DNA of 38,808 nt. It comes from a virus. Positions 5,105-30,242 of this stretch are shown here, one piece after another. The position numbers and the translations under genes were made by a program. The first letter of the stretch is position 1, and each line of letters starts with the position of its first letter. The notes below the pieces were generated by a model. The model ran no database searches, was not told where the DNA came from, and worked only from the letters and a program-made list of their open reading frames with translations. The stretch lies in the IMG/VR virus record IMGVR_UViG_3300026519_000027, positions 1 to 38,808 of that record, one strand, 5' to 3'.

Positions 5105-5658
5105 TGGTTACACTGGCGAATAAATTCGGGCTTCCTGAGTACCTAGAAACTCTTGGCTACGAGGTGCACCAGGTTGTTGAGCCGGGCGGTAAAGTAAGTG
5201 TCCGCTATTCAGGCGGCACGGAGAGCGACATACAGGCAGCAATAGATGCTTACGACCCGCTAATTCCAGCCCAGACAGATGCAATAAAACGAGTAAAATC
5301 TGCCGCTGATGAAACTCGCCGACGTTACGCAAATCCAGAAAAAGATGGTATCTATCTCATTAAAGCACAGCAAGCAAAAGATTATTTGGCTGCAGTAGCC
5401 GCTAGTGGGGGAACTGAATTAACAGACACGTCTGGCTATGAGTTCGTGGTAAGTGAGCAGCATGCGAGTAATTTACCATCTGTGTCGGACGCAGCTAATT
5501 TCATTCTCGGTATGCGTGACAGGTGGCTGTCTATTATGCTGGCTATAGAAGACATTGCACGGCCAGCAGTGACTGAGATCAGTACGCTCACATATGGTGA
5601 ATGGAGACGTGCGGAAGTTATTGCAGATAGCGCTGTAACTAGGCTAGAGGCGATCTAA
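5104..5658 (+). CDS. Hypothetical protein, possible fibre-associated or chaperone
   Basis: A 184-residue, mostly helical-looking protein, unlike its beta-rich neighbours. It has an Arg/Lys/Glu segment around residues 60-85 and Trp-containing helices near the C terminus. The layout (structural protein, then a helical partner of this size) is like tail-fibre plus assembly-chaperone pairs, but no signature was recognised. GGAG precedes the ATG, which overlaps the upstream stop by one base. Confidence 0.55.
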   Translation: MVTLANKFGLPEYLETLGYEVHQVVEPGGKVSVRYSGGTESDIQAAIDAYDPLIPAQTDAIKRVKSAADETRRRYANPEKDGIYLIKAQQAKDYLAAVAASGGTELTDTSGYEFVVSEQHASNLPSVSDAANFILGMRDRWLSIMLAIEDIARPAVTEISTLTYGEWRRAEVIADSAVTRLEAI

Positions 5659-5659
5659 T

Positions 5660-6871
5660 ATGCCTGGTGCAGGCTGGGCCGAACTTGGCAAATACCCGCT
5701 TGGTGGGCCATATAGTGTAGCATCTGACACTACTCCGCCAGCGCTGTCTAACCCAGCAGCAACATCTACCGGAAGCACGACTGCAAGCGGTACTGTAACG
5801 ACAGATGAGGGAAATGGCACTCTATATTTTATTGCCACGACTAATGCCACAGAATCAGCTGCTACGATTAAGGCTGGAGGTAGCCAGGCTGTCACTGCAA
5901 CAGGTTCGCAGAGCGTTACGTTCTCAGGGCTGACGGCATCGACTACATATTACGCACACTATGTCCAGGATGATGCTGCAGGTAATGAGTCAAATGTCGT
6001 CACGAGCGCTAGCTTTACAACGGATGCGGCAACATTTTCAGGCAGCTTATCTGCTGGCAGCAGCGCAAGTGAATCGTTTTCTGCTGCAGCAACTACCATC
6101 TCAACGCTGTCTTCAGGGCTGTCTGTCTCCGCTGCAATTTCAAGTAAAGCCACAGCTTCAGCAAGCATAACAGAGGGCGCCGGAGCAGCGGACTCAGACG
6201 CCGGCGCCGCCGCTATCGTGGTGTCAACTACGGACGGAATGTCAGCTTCAGCCGCCCAATCGGCTTTGGCAAATGCTGTCGCAGCGATATCTGACGGGCT
6301 GGCGGCAGGTGAGGCTTGGGCATCGAGTGTGCAGGCAGTAGCTGACCTTGCAAGTGCAGTGCAGTTTGGGGACACATACGCAGGTAGTGTCACGATTCCT
6401 GGCGGACAAACTGGAGCAATGACGGCGGGGTCTTCGGCTTCGGATGCGTTCGCTTCAGCGGTGGCGGCGCTCACGTCTTTGACTGATGGGGTATCTATCG
6501 GTGAAATGTTTAGCTCGGCGGCGGCAGCCAATGCTAGCCTGTCTGCATCAACCGCACTTGGCTCGACATTCTCTGCGGCCGTCGGGGCCGGAATCTCTGC
6601 GGCAATATCCGCCGGGACTGCGAACTCAGAGAGTTTCGTTACGGCGGTCAAGGCGCTAGCGACACTTACTGCAGACTCTGTCTTGGGTGATGCTTACGTT
6701 GCTAGTTATGCGGCATCTGGTAATATTATGGGAGGCGCTGAGTTTGGCGCGACATTTTCATACGGAGGCAGCATAGGCTGTCTAGTTGCTGCAGTTTCAA
6801 TATCTGCGGCAGTAGGAGCAAGTATCATATTAGACCCTGCTGCAGATGGGACAATTACAGTCTGTCCATAA
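5660..6871 (+). CDS. Ala/Ser-rich repetitive virion protein with an Ig/FnIII-like domain
   Basis: A 403-residue protein. It starts with a short GAGWAELGKYPLGG segment. Residues about 22-120 look like an immunoglobulin/fibronectin-III-like domain (DTTPPALSNPAAT at the start, LTASTTYYAHYVQDDAAGN near the end). The remaining 280 residues are degenerate repeats of roughly 25-30 residues built mainly of Ala, Ser, Gly and Thr around a motif like LSAGSSASESF. Such repeats suggest a long fibrous or decoration structure. GAGGCGA precedes the ATG. The exact role is unknown. Confidence 0.6.
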   Translation: MPGAGWAELGKYPLGGPYSVASDTTPPALSNPAATSTGSTTASGTVTTDEGNGTLYFIATTNATESAATIKAGGSQAVTATGSQSVTFSGLTASTTYYAHYVQDDAAGNESNVVTSASFTTDAATFSGSLSAGSSASESFSAAATTISTLSSGLSVSAAISSKATASASITEGAGAADSDAGAAAIVVSTTDGMSASAAQSALANAVAAISDGLAAGEAWASSVQAVADLASAVQFGDTYAGSVTIPGGQTGAMTAGSSASDAFASAVAALTSLTDGVSIGEMFSSAAAANASLSASTALGSTFSAAVGAGISAAISAGTANSESFVTAVKALATLTADSVLGDAYVASYAASGNIMGGAEFGATFSYGGSIGCLVAAVSISAAVGASIILDPAADGTITVCP

Positions 6872-6882
6872 CGAGGTGAATC

Positions 6883-7443
6883 ATGGAATATAAGGGCGAA
6901 TTTGGGGATTCTATCTCCGCCAAAGTAAATAGCGTTTCCGGACTCAGTGGTGATGCGCAAGTAATCGGACACTGGACGGCCATCTGTCGTGGCCCAGATG
7001 GCAATGTAAAATGGAGAGATGAATGGGAGAACATCGTGGTTAATGCAGGCCTCGATCATCTTCTTGATGCGACGCTATCAGCAGGTACGCAAATCACAAC
7101 TTGGTATGTTGGATTGACAGACGGCACTCCTACCATTGCTGCAGGTGATACCATGGCATCTCATGCAGGCTGGGCAGAAGTCACATCCTACACAGAGGCT
7201 GCCCGTGTTACTTGGGTGGATGGAGGCGTCTCAAACCAGTCTGTCAGTAATTCTGCAAACACAGCTACGTTCTCCATAAACGCTACCGCAACAGTTGGTG
7301 GAGCGTTCCTTGTGTCTGATGCAACAAAGGGAGGAACAACTGGCATGCTGTATGCAGCAGGGGCATTTAGCGGTGGTGATAAGACCCTTGGCAGCGGAGA
7401 TACGCTGGACGTAACCGCCACCTTCACTTCTGCTGCGGTGTAA
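6883..7443 (+). CDS. Putative phage structural protein
   Basis: A 186-residue protein. The N-terminal segment (VIGHWTAICRGPDGNVKWRDEWENIVVNAGLDHLLD) followed by TTWYVGLTDG matches a pattern I recall in many phage virion proteins of unknown role. The C-terminal half is Gly/Ala/Thr-rich and likely beta-structured. GAGGTGA lies at proper spacing before the ATG. It stands in a run of appendage-like genes ahead of the portal. Confidence 0.6.
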   Translation: MEYKGEFGDSISAKVNSVSGLSGDAQVIGHWTAICRGPDGNVKWRDEWENIVVNAGLDHLLDATLSAGTQITTWYVGLTDGTPTIAAGDTMASHAGWAEVTSYTEAARVTWVDGGVSNQSVSNSANTATFSINATATVGGAFLVSDATKGGTTGMLYAAGAFSGGDKTLGSGDTLDVTATFTSAAV

Positions 7444-7447
7444 TCTT

Positions 7448-7756
7448 GTGGCTACGCTGACTTTATACGTCGGCAACGATAGTGTCTTGACGCTAAGTGG
7501 TCTCATTAATTCGGTGGACAGCACCTACATCAACTCTGCTACTGTAACGTATTCGTTGGTTGATTCTAACGGCGCGACAGTGGATTCAGGGTCAATGGCC
7601 TACGTTGCCTCGTCGAACGGAATCTACCGCGCCACGCTCGCCGATACACTCAGCCTTACAGCCGGTGACTCATATACGGTTATTGTGGACGCAGATGGTG
7701 GATCTGGCCTGAAATACCATAGTGAGTCAGCTGTAATCGCAGCAACGAGGACATAA
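7448..7756 (+). CDS. Small beta-rich phage protein
   Basis: A 102-residue protein with alternating hydrophobic residues suggesting a single Ig-like beta sandwich (TLTLYVGNDSVLTLSGL near the start, GDSYTVIVDADGG near the end). It begins with GTG four bases after the preceding stop. No family was recognised. By position it is likely a virion component accompanying the two proteins upstream. Confidence 0.55.
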   Translation: MATLTLYVGNDSVLTLSGLINSVDSTYINSATVTYSLVDSNGATVDSGSMAYVASSNGIYRATLADTLSLTAGDSYTVIVDADGGSGLKYHSESAVIAATRT

Positions 7757-7758
7757 TC

Positions 7759-7992
7759 ATGGCTGGGATAACACTCGCCCAAGCTGAGGCCGCTTTGGCA
7801 AATTGGATCGCAGCAGATACAGCGGTATCAAAAAACCAGTCATACACCATGGATGACAGAACTCTTACCCGCGCTCATGCATCTGAGGTCAGGGAAAATT
7901 TGCGTTTCTGGGAGAACAAGGTCGCTATCCTGCAGCGAGAAGCTGATGGTGCGCGTGGTATAAGCATGTCTACAGCGAGGTTCAACAAGTGA
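7759..7992 (+). CDS. DUF6148-like small head protein
   Basis: A 77-residue helical protein. The pattern LAQAEAALANWIAADTAVSKNQSYTM followed by RTLTRA and a second amphipathic helix is characteristic of the small DUF6148-type proteins encoded directly before portal genes. In lambda the comparable position is held by gpW, which completes the head-tail connector. Its stop overlaps the portal start (GTGA), suggesting coupled translation. Confidence 0.65.
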   Translation: MAGITLAQAEAALANWIAADTAVSKNQSYTMDDRTLTRAHASEVRENLRFWENKVAILQREADGARGISMSTARFNK

Positions 7993-9443
7993 AGGCCTTA
8001 GATTTATGGCTCGCTGGAACTTTCCCTGGTTATGCAATGCGCCGCATGAAGGCGCAAGCACTTGTGCGTGCTAAATATGAAGCTGCTACGCCAACACATC
8101 AAAGGAAAGCAACAAAGTCTTCAGGTAGCGCCGACACCGTGAACCGTGCAGCCATCCAAAGCCTGAGAGACCAAGCCCGCAACCTAGAAGAAAACTACGA
8201 CATAGCATCCGGTGCGCTTGACGTGCTGGTGGATAACGTCGTCGGCATGGGCATCCGCCCTGACCCGCAGATCAAGTCGCTGAACGGCGATTTATTGGAG
8301 GATGTCAATTCTAAGCTTCGCCAATTACACCGCGACTGGGTAAAGCGACCTGAAGTAACATGGGAGTTCGACTTCTACACGGCACAGCGTCTGCTCGCAC
8401 GTTCGCTGTATCGCGACGGTGAAGTATTGGCACAACGTCTACTAGGCAAGGTTCGTGGCCTAGACCACGGAACAATCGTCCCATTCTCAATCGAGATGAT
8501 GGAGGCGGACTTCCTGCCGATGACATTCGACGATGATGCAAAGGGTATCGTTCAGGGGGTTCAGAAGAACGCCTGGGGCAGACCAATAAACTATTACATC
8601 TACAAAACGCACCCCGGATCTTATGTTGGTTTCGGCGGGATGCTGGCCGAGACAAAGCGTGTCAAGGCGTCGGCTATCCTACATCCAAAGATGGTGAAGC
8701 GTATCGGACAAACTCGCGGCGTGTCAGTGTTCGCAACGGTACTCGGACGGTTTGAGGATATCAAAGAGATTGAAGAGTCTGAACGTGTTGCTGCTAGAGT
8801 AGCGGCGGCTATGACAGGCTACATCAAGAAAGGCAATCCTGATAATTACGTCTCCCCAAAAAGCGGAGAAAACTTCCGCATGATTGATTTTGAGCCAGGC
8901 ATAATCTTTGATGACCTGCGTGAAGGCGAGGATGTTGGCCTAATATCCAGCAATCGGCCTAATTCACAGGTTACTTTGTTTCGTGACGACAATATGCGGG
9001 CTGCGGCGTCAGGCATTGGCGCGGCTTTCTCAAGCATCGCCAAGAACTACAACGGCTCGTATTCCAGTCAGCGCCAAGAGCTTGTAGAGGCATATCAGCA
9101 CTACGGCCCATTATGGATGTATTTTGTACGGACTGTATGCCAGCCTATTTGGGAAGACTTCGTTTCTATGGCTTTCGCTTCTGGTGCGGTAGATACGCCG
9201 TCAGATCTTGACCGAGATACGATGTTTGACGTCGATCACTCGCGTCCAGCTATGCCTTGGATTGATCCCAAGAAGGAAGTTGAAGGCATAGAGAAGCGTC
9301 TGAACCTACGTCTCGTTGCCCGTAGCCAGGCTATCCGCCAGAGCGGTCAAGACCCTGATGAGGTGCGTGAGCTGGTCAAGCGTGAAAAGGCACAGGACGA
9401 GGAAGACGGATTTTCCTCTGATATTTCGCCTGATCCTAGTTAA
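7989..9443 (+). CDS. Portal protein, lambda gpB-like
   Basis: A 484-residue portal of the lambda B type. The family pattern is clear: an N-terminal Arg/Lys region, then LEENYDIASGALDVLVDNVVG (about residues 67-87), DWVKRPEVTWEFDFYTAQRL (about 116-135), an SSIAKNYNGSYSSQR segment (about 346-360) and a C-terminal charged tail. Twelve copies would form the DNA entry channel and dock the terminase. The GTG start at 7989 overlaps the upstream stop. The last eight bases overlap, in the opposite sense, the end of a leftward gene. Confidence 0.9.
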   Translation: MKALDLWLAGTFPGYAMRRMKAQALVRAKYEAATPTHQRKATKSSGSADTVNRAAIQSLRDQARNLEENYDIASGALDVLVDNVVGMGIRPDPQIKSLNGDLLEDVNSKLRQLHRDWVKRPEVTWEFDFYTAQRLLARSLYRDGEVLAQRLLGKVRGLDHGTIVPFSIEMMEADFLPMTFDDDAKGIVQGVQKNAWGRPINYYIYKTHPGSYVGFGGMLAETKRVKASAILHPKMVKRIGQTRGVSVFATVLGRFEDIKEIEESERVAARVAAAMTGYIKKGNPDNYVSPKSGENFRMIDFEPGIIFDDLREGEDVGLISSNRPNSQVTLFRDDNMRAAASGIGAAFSSIAKNYNGSYSSQRQELVEAYQHYGPLWMYFVRTVCQPIWEDFVSMAFASGAVDTPSDLDRDTMFDVDHSRPAMPWIDPKKEVEGIEKRLNLRLVARSQAIRQSGQDPDEVRELVKREKAQDEEDGFSSDISPDPS

Positions 9444-24291: not shown

Positions 24292-24510
24292 TTAGTTATT
24301 AATTGTTTCACTTTTGATCGCTAGCTCAGACACGCGGCTGAATGGAAATTCCAGCAGCAATTCAGCACACCGCGCAGCAGCAGGATGGACGCGCGTTTTG
24401 CCGCTTGCCCAATCGCGGTATGTTGTGTAGCTGACGCCAAGCGCCCGACTCATAGCAACAGGGCCAAGGCATAAGCGCTCGCGGATGTCGTTCAGTTCTT
24501 TAGCGGTCAT
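24292..24510 (-). CDS. Helix-turn-helix DNA-binding protein
   Basis: A 72-residue protein with a lambda-repressor-type helix-turn-helix over most of its length (LGPVAMSRALGVSYTTYRDWASG, about residues 15-37). AAGGA lies ahead of the ATG. It is the last gene of the leftward early operon, far from the early promoters, so it is not in the usual place for CI or Cro. It probably regulates some phage or host promoter. Confidence 0.75.
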   Translation of the reverse strand: MTAKELNDIRERLCLGPVAMSRALGVSYTTYRDWASGKTRVHPAAARCAELLLEFPFSRVSELAIKSETINN

Positions 24511-24568: not shown

Positions 24569-24575
24569 GTTAGGC
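24569..24575 (-). other. Core-site-like GTTAGGC directly after the 81-residue gene
   Basis: On the leftward strand this reads GCCTAAC, one base after the TGA of the gene at 24577-24822. GCCTAAC is the form of the inverse core (RYYYAAC) that begins an integron attC site right after a cassette gene. No attC-like hairpin follows here, so it is a bare core at best. Confidence 0.45.
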
Positions 24576-24576
24576 G

Positions 24577-24822
24577 TCAAGTAACGCCCTGTTCATAATC
24601 GTAATACAGTAGACCCGTATCAGTATAAATTTGAAATCTCCAATACGGATGGCAATTTCTAGTATTGCCATTATCGTCGAATTTAACATTAAAATTAGCA
24701 GATGAATTGCCACCGACAATCTTTCCGGCTCTGCCATCTACTGAACATGCCATACCCTTTTTAACTGGCGGAATATCTCGCTGCCTGCAAACTGCATCAA
24801 TATGTTTCTGTGTATTTGGCAT
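24577..24822 (-). CDS. Small phage protein in a cassette-like setting
   Basis: An 81-residue protein. The segment VKKGMACSVDGRAGKIVGG followed by NFNVKFDDNG and NCHPYW is a small beta-domain pattern I recall from phage proteins of unknown role. AGGAG lies six bases before the ATG. The 5' leader is only 13 bases from a GTTAGGC core, and a GCCTAAC core begins one base after the stop, the spacing of integron gene cassettes. Confidence 0.75.
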   Translation of the reverse strand: MPNTQKHIDAVCRQRDIPPVKKGMACSVDGRAGKIVGGNSSANFNVKFDDNGNTRNCHPYWRFQIYTDTGLLYYDYEQGVT

Positions 24823-24835
24823 ACTTATCTCCTGC

Positions 24836-24907
24836 GCCTAACAAGGCGCTCCAGTTGACGCTCAATACGCTGCGCTTCTTTCGCGCAACTGAGCTAAGTG
24901 GTTATTC
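24836..24907 (-). other. attC-like recombination site (integron cassette type)
   Basis: Read leftward: GAATAAC (24907-24901, degenerate inverse core), an unpaired spacer, then GCTC-AGTTG-CGC (24915-side to 24883; bases 24894-24883 complement 24883-24894 of the given strand). Next comes a terminal hairpin with GCGC ends, then GCG, extra T, CAACT, extra G, GAGC, spacer GCCTT and core GTTAGGC (24842-24836). So 12 stem pairs carry two extrahelical bases on one side only, with unpaired spacers next to the core boxes. This is the known attC plan, 72 bases long, within attC size range. The outer core is imperfect. It lies between two leftward genes, six bases after the stop of the upstream one. Confidence 0.5.
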
Positions 24908-24913
24908 ACGCAG

Positions 24914-25309
24914 TCATGATGTGTCTATTGTCATGTCCACGCGCGGCAACTTACCTTCCGGGTCTATTTTCTCATACATCAAAAGAAGGGCATTTATCCC
25001 ATGCCATGCTGCTAACTCATAATCACATATGCGTTCCTGGTCTCCCCAATATACGCCGTCTTCGTCGTCGCCATTCTCGTCGATTATGGCGTCTGCTGGC
25101 TTGTGTCTGATATTCACCGCTTTCGCAGATGCAGTTATGACGCCGACCACGATCTGGTCGGCAAGCTCGCTCCATACGCCATCCTCAAGGCTGTTATTAA
25201 TTGCCGCGCGTGCCGCTTGATCGCGCTCGTACTCAGTAGCGAAGTACTGCATACCGTCGCCTTCCGGGTCGTACAAGAAAAATCGCTCGCCCTTATAACT
25301 ACGATTCAT
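24914..25309 (-). CDS. Conserved phage early protein of unknown function
   Basis: A 131-residue acidic protein (FFLYDPEGDGMQYFATEYERD near the start, ICDYELAAWHG in the last third). This resembles a family common in enteric phages and prophages with no known role. AAGGAGG precedes the ATG, and the ATG overlaps the stop of the upstream frame as ATGA. The attC-like site follows six bases after its stop. Confidence 0.75.
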   Translation of the reverse strand: MNRSYKGERFFLYDPEGDGMQYFATEYERDQAARAAINNSLEDGVWSELADQIVVGVITASAKAVNIRHKPADAIIDENGDDEDGVYWGDQERICDYELAAWHGINALLLMYEKIDPEGKLPRVDMTIDTS

Positions 25310-26315: not shown

Positions 26316-26531
26316 TTACCATAAAGTTACCTTCTTCTTTTTTGTGAATAAAACAAACGAATCAATGCGTTCTGGCATTTCATCAAACGGGCCAATGGTA
26401 GTGCCATTAACAGTGACTGCCTTGTTTAAACACCAGCGCTTCAATTCACTATTAGATGCGATGCCTTTTCTCTCTCTGCTAGTAAACTTACACACTTCGT
26501 GAAGACTTATAAGAAATTCCCAAGCAATCAT
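26316..26531 (-). CDS. Conserved small phage protein
   Basis: A 71-residue protein (MIAWEFLISLHEVCKFTSRE, then SNSELKRWCLNKAVTVNG, then FVLFTKKKKVTLW). This layout recalls a small family in early regions of enteric-type phages. The middle resembles the RNA-binding S4-like pattern (SN-x-ELKRW...AV-x-VNG), so RNA binding is possible but unproven. AGAGG lies eight bases before ATG 26531. Confidence 0.7.
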   Translation of the reverse strand: MIAWEFLISLHEVCKFTSRERKGIASNSELKRWCLNKAVTVNGTTIGPFDEMPERIDSFVLFTKKKKVTLW

Positions 26532-26583
26532 TTTTACCACCTCTTATTGTTAGCCTCCTATTATTTCTTGGAGTCCCCAAATC

Positions 26584-26793
26584 TCATGCGTCAAAAATTG
26601 CTTCAATTTCTCTTAAAATAGCCTTTATTGCGTGAATCTGTAACCGCCTAACATCTTCTGGGCAATAACCGCGCTTATTATTGTCCTCAACTATGTGGGC
26701 CGACAAATCATTTAAGCTCTTCCACAATTCACCAAGGTTTTTAACCCCTTCATTTCCAACTGTGAGTGCCAGTTTGCGCTCTGTGCTCATCAT
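26584..26793 (-). CDS. Hypothetical early protein
   Basis: A 69-residue helical protein (STERKLALTVGNEGVKNLGE near the start, ILREIEAIFDA at the end). AAGGAG precedes two adjacent ATG codons (26793 and 26790), either of which could be used. The frame upstream of this is open but overlaps the neighbouring gene. No function recognised. Confidence 0.65.
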   Translation of the reverse strand: MMSTERKLALTVGNEGVKNLGELWKSLNDLSAHIVEDNNKRGYCPEDVRRLQIHAIKAILREIEAIFDA

Positions 26794-27255: not shown

Positions 27256-27330
27256 TGGTGCCCCGCCTCAGATTCGAACTGAGAATCCACGGATTATGAG
27301 TCCGCTGCTTTACCATTAAGCTAACGAGGC
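27256..27330 (-). tRNA. tRNA with anticodon CAU (Met, or Ile2)
   Basis: A complete 75-base cloverleaf including CCA on the leftward strand. Acceptor GCCTCGT/GCGGGGC (with two G-U pairs), D stem GCTT/AAGC, anticodon stem GCGGA/TCCGT with loop CTCATAA (anticodon CAT), T stem CTCAG/CTGAG with loop TTCGAAT. CAT in phages may be elongator Met or lysidine-modified Ile2; sequence alone does not settle it. Confidence 0.9.
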
Positions 27331-27832: not shown

Positions 27833-29452
27833 CTATGAAAAATAAACACGATCAATTTTACCATCAACGATAAGCTGAGCAACTGTGTTAGCGATAACTG
27901 AAGATATTCCATGCGCAGCAATACTTTTCATGATCTGTATCGTTGGGTCTTTCTCGATTGAGACATTATTTTCATTACAATTTTTTAAGGCAACTTTTTG
28001 TCTTCCGGCTGCTTCACCTTCTGCTACGGTAAGTTCCATGTATTCTTTTGCTGCACGGTCGCGCTCTTCAGCGGCTTTGCGCTTGGCCTCGGCTTGTTCC
28101 TCTGCAGCCTTCTTCTCAGCAGCCTTACGTGTAACATCTGCCTTGTGCTGTGCAACACGATCACGAACAAGCGCGCCAAAATCTTCAGTTTCTTTAAAAA
28201 TTATCTGCTTATAATCAGCAAACAAGAATTTAAATTCCTCAGCTTCTTCGCTTAACGTTTTCAGGTTGACACGAATCTTTCTGGCAATTCCGTCTGCTTC
28301 TATCTTCGCCCGTGCTAGCTCATCGTTTACGGCTGACTGAACAGACGACAGTTTACTTTTCCCTTTCGCCGCATTGATGAAGTTTCCGCTAATGCGACCT
28401 AAATACGGACCGCCATCCAACTCTGCATCCAATTTAGAGCAATAATCAGCAAGATCACGTTCGGCTTTCTTGATAATATCAAAACGCAACTGTTCTTTAC
28501 GTGCCTTAACCTGCTTTTCTCCGTTGAGCGCAGCCTGGCGAAGCATCTCACCTATGCTCATTAGATCGTCGCGGAATTTGGCGATATCAGAAACCTCGTT
28601 TATTACCCTGTCGCAGACTGCCTTTATATCCTTCACAGCCTTACGCAACGCCTTATTGCGCACCTCTGCGGTAGCGAATTCCTGATCTGTGGTCATTGGA
28701 AGCTTGCTTTCTTCAACTAGGCGCTCTGCAGCTTCCCTATACTCGTCAAGGTTCGACTTAATAGCCATGCCGTTAAGCTGGTACCTAATGGCAGGTAATG
28801 ACTCAACAGGCGCTGGCATAGCATCCACATCTGCCACAACTGGAACGTATGCATCAACGTCGGCCTTGAACTGTTTACAGGCCGCAATGATTTCATCCAT
28901 GAGTCCAGGGGTTGACTCATACCAGGTTGATACCATTGTTTCTTCGTTGCCGTTTTCTGACGCCATAAACAAGCATTTTTCTGCACCGGAAATAAATAAC
29001 TGAACCTCCATTTGAATTTTATGCATGTCGCAAATCGTTCCTTGTTGGACATTTGTCGAAAGATCGCAGTTTAGCCCTTTATGCTCCCATGAGATTGATT
29101 GATCAATGGTAAGTCCGTCGAAACTTGCTGAAAACTTCAATCCATCAACAACTATACTAATTGTTGCTGGGAACAGCTCTTCACCGACAATCTTTTCGGC
29201 AATAGGCCTGGCCAATCGTTCGTCTTTATGGCCTTTATCAAAGATACGTTTAAGGTACGTGCTAATTTCAGGGGTTTCACCTGTAGCACATTGCGCAATA
29301 AATTCGTCGCGCGTTGTGTATTTATCAACGCCCATAACCTTTGCGATATCTGACGCGTTAAATGTCGGCCACGCCCTGTGTGCGTGCCATTCTTGTGAGT
29401 TTTGCGCAAATTTGTGGTATGTTTTTTCAGTTATTTTTTCGTTGTTAGTCAT
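27833..29452 (-). CDS. YqaJ-type recombination nuclease with long C-terminal coiled coil
   Basis: A 539-residue protein. Residues about 18-200 fit the YqaJ/lambda-exonuclease fold: SQEWHAHRAW, FNASDIAKVMGVDKY, GHKDE (Glu78), SFDG (Asp112) and E-x-K in WEHKG (Glu123, Lys125), then HKIQMEVQLF. The remaining 330 residues are Lys/Glu/Ala-rich and helical (for example KKAAEEQAEAKRKAAEERD), resembling DUF1351-like parts. It would resect double-stranded ends for the RecT annealase. The fusion of both parts in one chain is notable. The start lies five bases after the upstream stop. Confidence 0.82.
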   Translation of the reverse strand: MTNNEKITEKTYHKFAQNSQEWHAHRAWPTFNASDIAKVMGVDKYTTRDEFIAQCATGETPEISTYLKRIFDKGHKDERLARPIAEKIVGEELFPATISIVVDGLKFSASFDGLTIDQSISWEHKGLNCDLSTNVQQGTICDMHKIQMEVQLFISGAEKCLFMASENGNEETMVSTWYESTPGLMDEIIAACKQFKADVDAYVPVVADVDAMPAPVESLPAIRYQLNGMAIKSNLDEYREAAERLVEESKLPMTTDQEFATAEVRNKALRKAVKDIKAVCDRVINEVSDIAKFRDDLMSIGEMLRQAALNGEKQVKARKEQLRFDIIKKAERDLADYCSKLDAELDGGPYLGRISGNFINAAKGKSKLSSVQSAVNDELARAKIEADGIARKIRVNLKTLSEEAEEFKFLFADYKQIIFKETEDFGALVRDRVAQHKADVTRKAAEKKAAEEQAEAKRKAAEERDRAAKEYMELTVAEGEAAGRQKVALKNCNENNVSIEKDPTIQIMKSIAAHGISSVIANTVAQLIVDGKIDRVYFS

Positions 29453-29456
29453 TTCT

Positions 29457-30242
29457 TCAGCCCTCTATCAATTCTCCATAGCACACTTCGCCTTTTACCA
29501 ATTTGCGACAGGTGATCTTTTTCTCATCTCCAATTGGCAGTCTATAAATACATAAACCTGCAAAAATCCTCAAACCGGATGAAAGGTTCTTGCCGCAATG
29601 AATACCATAGCCCGCTTCGATAACAAGGCCAGCTTCGATACACAAGCCAGCTTTGATACCATCGCCCGCTTCGATACCATAGCCCGCTTAGATACCAAAT
29701 CCCGCTTCGATACCATCGCCCGCTTCGATACCACGACCCGCTTCGATACCATAGCCAGCTTCTATACCATAGCCAGCTTCGATACCATAGCCAGCTTTGA
29801 TACCATAGCCAGCTTCGATACCATAGCCAGCTTTGATACCATAGCCAGCTTTGATACCTTCGCCAGCTTCGATACCATAGCCCGCTTCGATACCACGACC
29901 CGCTTGGATATCAAAGCCCGCTTCGATATCACAGCAAGCTTTGATACCTTCGCCAGCTTCGATACCACGGCCCGCTTTGATACCCCGGCCAGCTTTAATA
30001 CCACCGCCAGCTTCGATACCATCGCCAGCTTCGATACCCAAGCCAGCTTTGATACCCCGGCCCACTTTGATGCCGGTGCCCGCTTTTGCTAAAACGTAAC
30101 CTGTAACACTGATTCTTTTGAAAAACACACAACCAAGCGACTCTTCTATTTCGATAGAGCCATCAAAGTCACCGATGCATATATCGCCAATATAATTATT
30201 ATCAGCATCGAAATGTTCTTTGTTCAGTTTTAAGATTTTCAT
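29457..30242 (-). pseudogene. Hexapeptide-repeat protein interrupted by an in-frame TAA
   Basis: Begins MKILKLNKEHFDADNNYIGD, a non-repeat head with strands, then about 26 copies of a six-residue unit G-I-(E/K)-A-G-x. The unit continues past a TAA at 29690-29688, where GAA stands in most other units, into a non-repeat end (GLRIFAGLCIYRLPIGDEKK) finishing at TGA 29457 only five bases before the YqaJ start. Without the TAA it would be 261 residues. The isoleucine every six residues suggests a left-handed beta-helix. The stop leaves a 184-residue protein and cuts off the C-terminal cap. Its ATG overlaps the RecT stop (ATGA). Confidence 0.65.
29605..30080. repeat. 18-bp tandem repeat array
   Basis: About 26 units of a degenerate 18-mer, typically CCATAGCCAGCTTCGATA as written. 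They encode the hexapeptide repeats on the leftward strand. The array is so regular that all frames are largely open. Unit sequences vary at a few set positions (Tyr, Arg, Asp, Glu, Lys codons), the pattern of unequal crossing-over plus drift. It is not a CRISPR array because there are no spacers. Confidence 0.85.

Follow-up and report, generated by a model that had tools for sequence, protein, structure and literature searches.

Integron cassettes are mobilised by the integron integrase, whose substrate is the folded bottom strand of the attC site, and the selectivity for this strand fixes the orientation in which a cassette is inserted (PMC11023631). Secondary attG sites can likewise receive cassettes (Loot et al, 2024, as cited in PMC12444791). 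Clusters of attC sites (CALINs) have been described in integrase-less phage genomes, several of the sites being used by IntI1; the arrays of TJE1 and PH101 are termed typical there, and the polarity of gene versus attC is not discussed (Qi et al, 2023; PMC9892861). The locus described here lies in a 38,808-nucleotide stretch of DNA, referred to as the window, which is a single, complete 38.8-kb virus record (IMGVR_UViG_3300026519_000027). It very probably holds one complete integron cassette, positioned back-to-front between two genes of a phage operon, where we infer that it was inserted by the IntI of a host. In common with the cassettes of class 1 integrons, such as that of aadA7, and of environmental chromosomal integrons, it has the sequence and fold of the attC, the pattern of extra bases, a crossover at G^TT, a start box complementary to its own R'' box and a short promoterless gene, the stop codon of such genes often lying within the end box. 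It differs from them in that the hairpin is inverted and precedes the gene, that the cassette ends at the stop of the gene, and that it is carried by a phage with no intI (by TIGR02249 search), attI or Pc nearby. Compared with the phage CALINs of Qi et al (2023), most of the phage arrays found here are inverted and cassettes are exchanged at a single locus. As with attG insertion, in so far as that work is relayed in PMC12444791, entry is at secondary sites, distinct from both attI and attC, whereas here it concerns phages and ORF-inverted cassettes, often directly behind TAA stop codons.

The window encodes a head maturation protease, a tape measure protein, RecE-like and RecT-like proteins, a single-strand binding protein, a replication O-like protein and NinG. 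TIGR02249, at its family cut-off, detected no integron integrase in this record or in any of 26 virus records and, lacking such a match, the window is not a complete integron in the sense of an intI with an attI in the same element. Next to the gene for the single-strand binding protein is a tRNA-Met gene (anticodon CAT; 27256-27330, minus strand). Within overlapping ORFs at 29602-30056 there is a tandem array of approximately 25 copies of an 18-bp unit (82% matches), either a repeat protein or a coding repeat, which is also present in the relative L007. The features of the cassette and its surroundings are collected in Table 1.

Table 1. Features of the inverted cassette and the neighbouring genes, in window coordinates.
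Feature	Position	Strand	Remarks
Complete integron cassette, 332 bp	24570..24901	+ (attC top strand)	start box complements own R''; homology of relatives breaks at the edges
Cassette edges	left crossover G24569^T24570, right crossover G24901^T24902		cassette = TTAGGC ... G
attC site	24836..24907	+	covariance model match; extra-base pattern like the aadA7 attC
attC boxes	R'' GCCTAAC 24836-24842; R' hybrid GTTATTC 24901-24907	+	hairpin between, two extra bases in the left arm
Left edge box G^TTAGGC	24569..24575	+	flank common to L007 and L059 begins here
81-aa cassette gene P0002	24577..24822	-	homologues in phages without attC
Leader GCAGGAGATAAGT	24823..24835	-	between R'' box and start codon; Shine-Dalgarno-like AGGAG
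131-aa gene P0001, upstream of insertion	24914..25309	-	homologues in L006 and L007
72-aa regulator-like gene P0003, downstream of insertion	24292..24510	-	homologues directly behind exchanged cassettes in L007 and L059

The hairpin had been picked out in the original prediction as attC-like, and this is borne out by a covariance model of bacterial sites and by homologous sites. The model was built from 16 bacterial attC sequences, 15 of them environmental and one the class 1 attC beside aadA7 and intI1, with no phage sequences in the training set. Its score, which had been proposed as a check, was strong: the single match in the window at E<=10 coincides exactly with the attC of Table 1, on the plus strand, at 63.6 bits and E=5.4e-15, the E-values of this model being rough on account of its short calibration. 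By DNA folding alone (z about -2), or by a loose hairpin scanner that finds approximately 0.8 equally good sites per dinucleotide-shuffled window, the hairpin is barely separated from chance. It is by homology that the attC is judged to be more than chance; two further viral contigs, whose surrounding genes are different, contain a 32-nt segment of the stem without a single change. The fold, the conserved boxes and the unpaired extra bases that define an attC are all seen. A DNA search of GenBank phages with the window locus found none. As the window holds one attC by the model, it is not a CALIN, for which at least two are required; relatives such as L072, L092 and L086 are.

The attC beside aadA7, whose gene runs with it from intI1, has its extra unpaired bases in the left arm in the pattern dddLddddddL, and extra bases are also in the left arm in most of the 15 environmental training sites. 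The window hairpin has the identical pattern when read on the plus strand, which is also the strand of the model match. The top strand of the attC is therefore the plus strand, whereas the 81-aa gene reads from the minus strand, and gene and hairpin consequently face opposite ways. The attC hairpin thus precedes its own gene, and the predicted recombining (bottom) strand is the coding strand. In the usual orientation, which is not strictly defining, the gene runs toward R'' along the top strand of the attC, and the window cassette departs from this. On the plus strand the order is G^TTAGGC, the antisense 81-aa gene, GCCTAAC, the hairpin and G^TTATTC. The start box TTAGGC is complementary to the R'' box of the same cassette, with the edge at G^TT, and the R' box is a hybrid, in which the cassette supplies the G and the phage target the TTATTC.

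All of the elements listed in the original prediction are present on the gene strand: the 131-aa gene, GAATAAC, the hairpin, GTTAGGC, the leader, the 81-aa ORF and, one base past its stop, GCCTAAC. The reading of them has to be revised. They had been taken in the order gene, attC, core, next gene, but the model matches the plus strand and the hairpin belongs, inverted, to the 81-aa gene. Of the two cassettes that had been envisaged only one is present, the 131-aa gene most likely being a resident gene of the phage and not cassette cargo. The 'degenerate' core and the missing second hairpin, which had appeared as oddities, are expected features of a complete inverted cassette. The outer core looks degenerate because R' is a hybrid box at the insertion target, and no hairpin is expected past the last GCCTAAC because this box is the front edge of the cassette.

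Comparison with related phages, suggested with the original prediction, gave breaks at the predicted crossover, with one other gene (L007) or two (L059) between the same boxes. In L007/L014 (contig 3300026519_000330) the downstream flank is shared with the window (GCCTAAC TAYTATTCC..., followed by the 72-aa gene), and a different gene, of 90 aa, follows an attC of the same type in place of the 81-aa gene. L059 (contig 3300026519_000032) has two other cassettes at this place. Between L007 and L059 the homology ends at TAA^C on one side and resumes at TAA^C on the other, while between the window and L007 the likeness begins at GCCTAA^C downstream; only this downstream break can be compared for the window because its upstream flank differs. 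The homologue of the 131-aa gene in L007 is separated from the attC by another gene. In a second group of phages, L086 and L094 are alike through a flank gene as far as ACATAAC, beyond which their first cassettes differ, the first cassette gene of L094 recurring at another position in the L086 array. From these two comparisons (window/L007/L059 and L086 versus L094) the cassette would appear to be mobile as a unit. Of the suggestion that the phage captures or donates cassettes, capture is supported by the model, the homologous sites and the exchange at the predicted base, while donation to chromosomal integrons was not seen. No relative with an empty site was found, including in searches with the flanks of L082 and L094 for cassette-free relatives; the flanks of L083 match Vibrio phages, of which the one retrieved has no cassettes and no base-exact empty site. 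In L127 (1361-1750) a homologue of the 81-aa protein is flanked by a decayed attC (box GTATGGC) and an end box GCCTAGC, with the stop codon TAG, and this cassette seems, from its boxes, to have become fixed in the phage.

To look more widely, pattern scans neutral to gene direction were followed by the covariance model. This survey, based on a single family of attC sequences and drawn from metagenomic contigs, gave approximately 20 further viral contigs with cassettes of the inverted design, some as arrays, with seven model matches in L072/L101, seven in L092, and five each in L086 and L002. The 22-kb viral contig L072 has its seven inverted attC sites at 5333-8038 (the same array as in L101). 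Terminase genes are present in the records of L017, L068, L082, L083, L092 and L094, among others, the viral status of the remaining contigs being that of the IMG/VR classification. The large terminase matches in the records of L004 and L005 contain two in-frame stops (TAG in one, TAA in the other). Almost all of the cassettes are built as hairpin, GTTxxxx, Shine-Dalgarno, an ORF of 40-206 aa and xxxxTAA^C, with a leader like that of the window, in which the ribosome site lies behind the hairpin, in most of them. In many the end box complements the R'' box of the same cassette at 7/7 positions, even where the boxes are unusual. At the eight loci where the ends of the array could be inspected there is a hairpin before the first gene and none past the last box, and this absence is an independent test of the polarity.

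Automatic calls of the ORF relative to the attC gave 42 inverted, 6 normal and 5 unclear for the phage sites, as against 47 normal, 6 inverted and 13 unclear for the bacterial ones. A noisier count based on the longest ORF, made as a check on these calls, gave inverted to normal ratios of 29:12 for phages and 6:53 for bacteria (Fisher p=4e-10, p-values being indicative only as sites within one array are not independent). TJE1, which was on the automatic list as inverted, is actually normal, as the stops of its annotated genes lie inside the attC matches. In Pseudoalteromonas phage H101 (L109) two attC sites (26529-26585 and 27931-27987) were matched weakly, on the strand opposite to the genes, and the H101 (PH101) array is probably also of the inverted kind. 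Among the sampled gammaproteobacterial genomes, 368 lacked the motif of the phage form, and the 369th is a MAG that includes the very L002 phage contig.

Three other explanations of the locus can be weighed against these results. Read along the minus strand, the order gene, box, hairpin, box, gene looks canonical, and the 131-aa gene could then be a cassette of ordinary polarity ending in its attC, with the 81-aa gene a second cassette whose attC has been lost. The strand of the model match and the side of the extra bases contradict this; in addition, no matching start box accompanies the 131-aa gene, the homologue in L007 lies apart from the attC, and the eight loci without a hairpin past the last box would require eight independent losses, so that this arrangement is very unlikely. 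It could also be that the hairpin serves mainly as an RNA element of the leaders of small phage genes, acting in processing or translation control and attC-like by resemblance. A hairpin that lies 5' of a gene and is, in most copies, followed at once by a ribosome site would fit such a role, but the Rfam families gave no match to the hairpin, and both the boxes at the two ends of the cassette and the match to a model of bacterial attC would be left unexplained. We consider this possibility to be extremely improbable.

Homologous recombination between phages sharing hairpins or flanks, with no integrase and with the hairpins as relics of old attC sites, would be in keeping with the mosaicism of phages and with the RecE- and RecT-like proteins of the window phage, as well as with the lack of an encoded IntI and the decay of some sites (L127). 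Against this, the breaks are confined to a single base, TAA^C, within boxes that are not themselves alike, and the end boxes match their own R'' even if unusual, as would be expected from G^TT excision and insertion; this account would seem unlikely. The comparison of sequences shows that the hairpin is an attC, where the edges of the cassette lie and which way it points, and likewise that cassettes are exchanged among related phages and that the inverted design recurs in other phages.

Insertion of such a cassette back-to-front might occur as follows. A host integron integrase would act in trans on the folded hairpin, with insertion at short G^TTR secondary (attG-like) sites. Because the hairpin is inverted, the target would read TAA^C on the coding strand of the operon, with G^TTA on the antisense strand. 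Entry directly behind a TAA stop would add a hairpin, a ribosome site, a gene and a stop without breaking any gene, and the inserted cassette gene would be read from the phage promoter. A cassette of normal polarity that entered there would lie antisense and not be expressed, and the inverted form may be maintained by selection for sense expression in tight operons. Of the boxes that come first in an array, 9 of approximately 17 are the in-frame TAA stop of the preceding gene, as against 15% of all sense TAAC sites at these loci. In the window the stop of the upstream gene is a TGA that precedes the box by six bases, and the stop-codon idea does not apply literally.

No description of the inverted phage-specific form was found in the open-access literature, subscription papers and preprints being outside the search; phage-borne attC sites as such had already been published. 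It is conceivable, if rather short of probable, that phages hold a cassette pool of their own, mainly of phage genes, inverted so that the host integrase places them behind the stops of operons ready for expression, and that the cassette economies of host and phage share enzymes while being partly separated by polarity. With the inverted design, phages would gain site-specific swapping of small genes with no recombinase of their own, and the fit of such cassettes in tight operons would be explained. The locus also bears on the question of the origin of cassettes, the 81-aa gene being plain in some phages and a cassette here, and surveys of attC sites that are blind to polarity will misread phage arrays.

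The product of the 81-aa gene is a small phage protein with homologues, without attC, in phages of several hosts; the gene has a GC content of 39% compared with 47% for the window, and the protein has weak PHROG matches to families without assigned function. The product of the 72-aa gene also has weak PHROG matches, among them a transcriptional regulator. Of the other cassettes, the last in L072 encodes a Mom-like DNA modification protein (PF25680) and one in L059 a nucleoside deoxyribosyltransferase-like protein (PF15891), while the products of others belong to PHROG families without assigned function. With GCC-TAA or AGC-GCC-TAA contributed by the end box, many cassette proteins (in L002, L003, L007, L016, L076, L082, L083, L092 and others) finish in -Ala or -Ser-Ala, and this ending could possibly serve as a signature for finding more cassettes.
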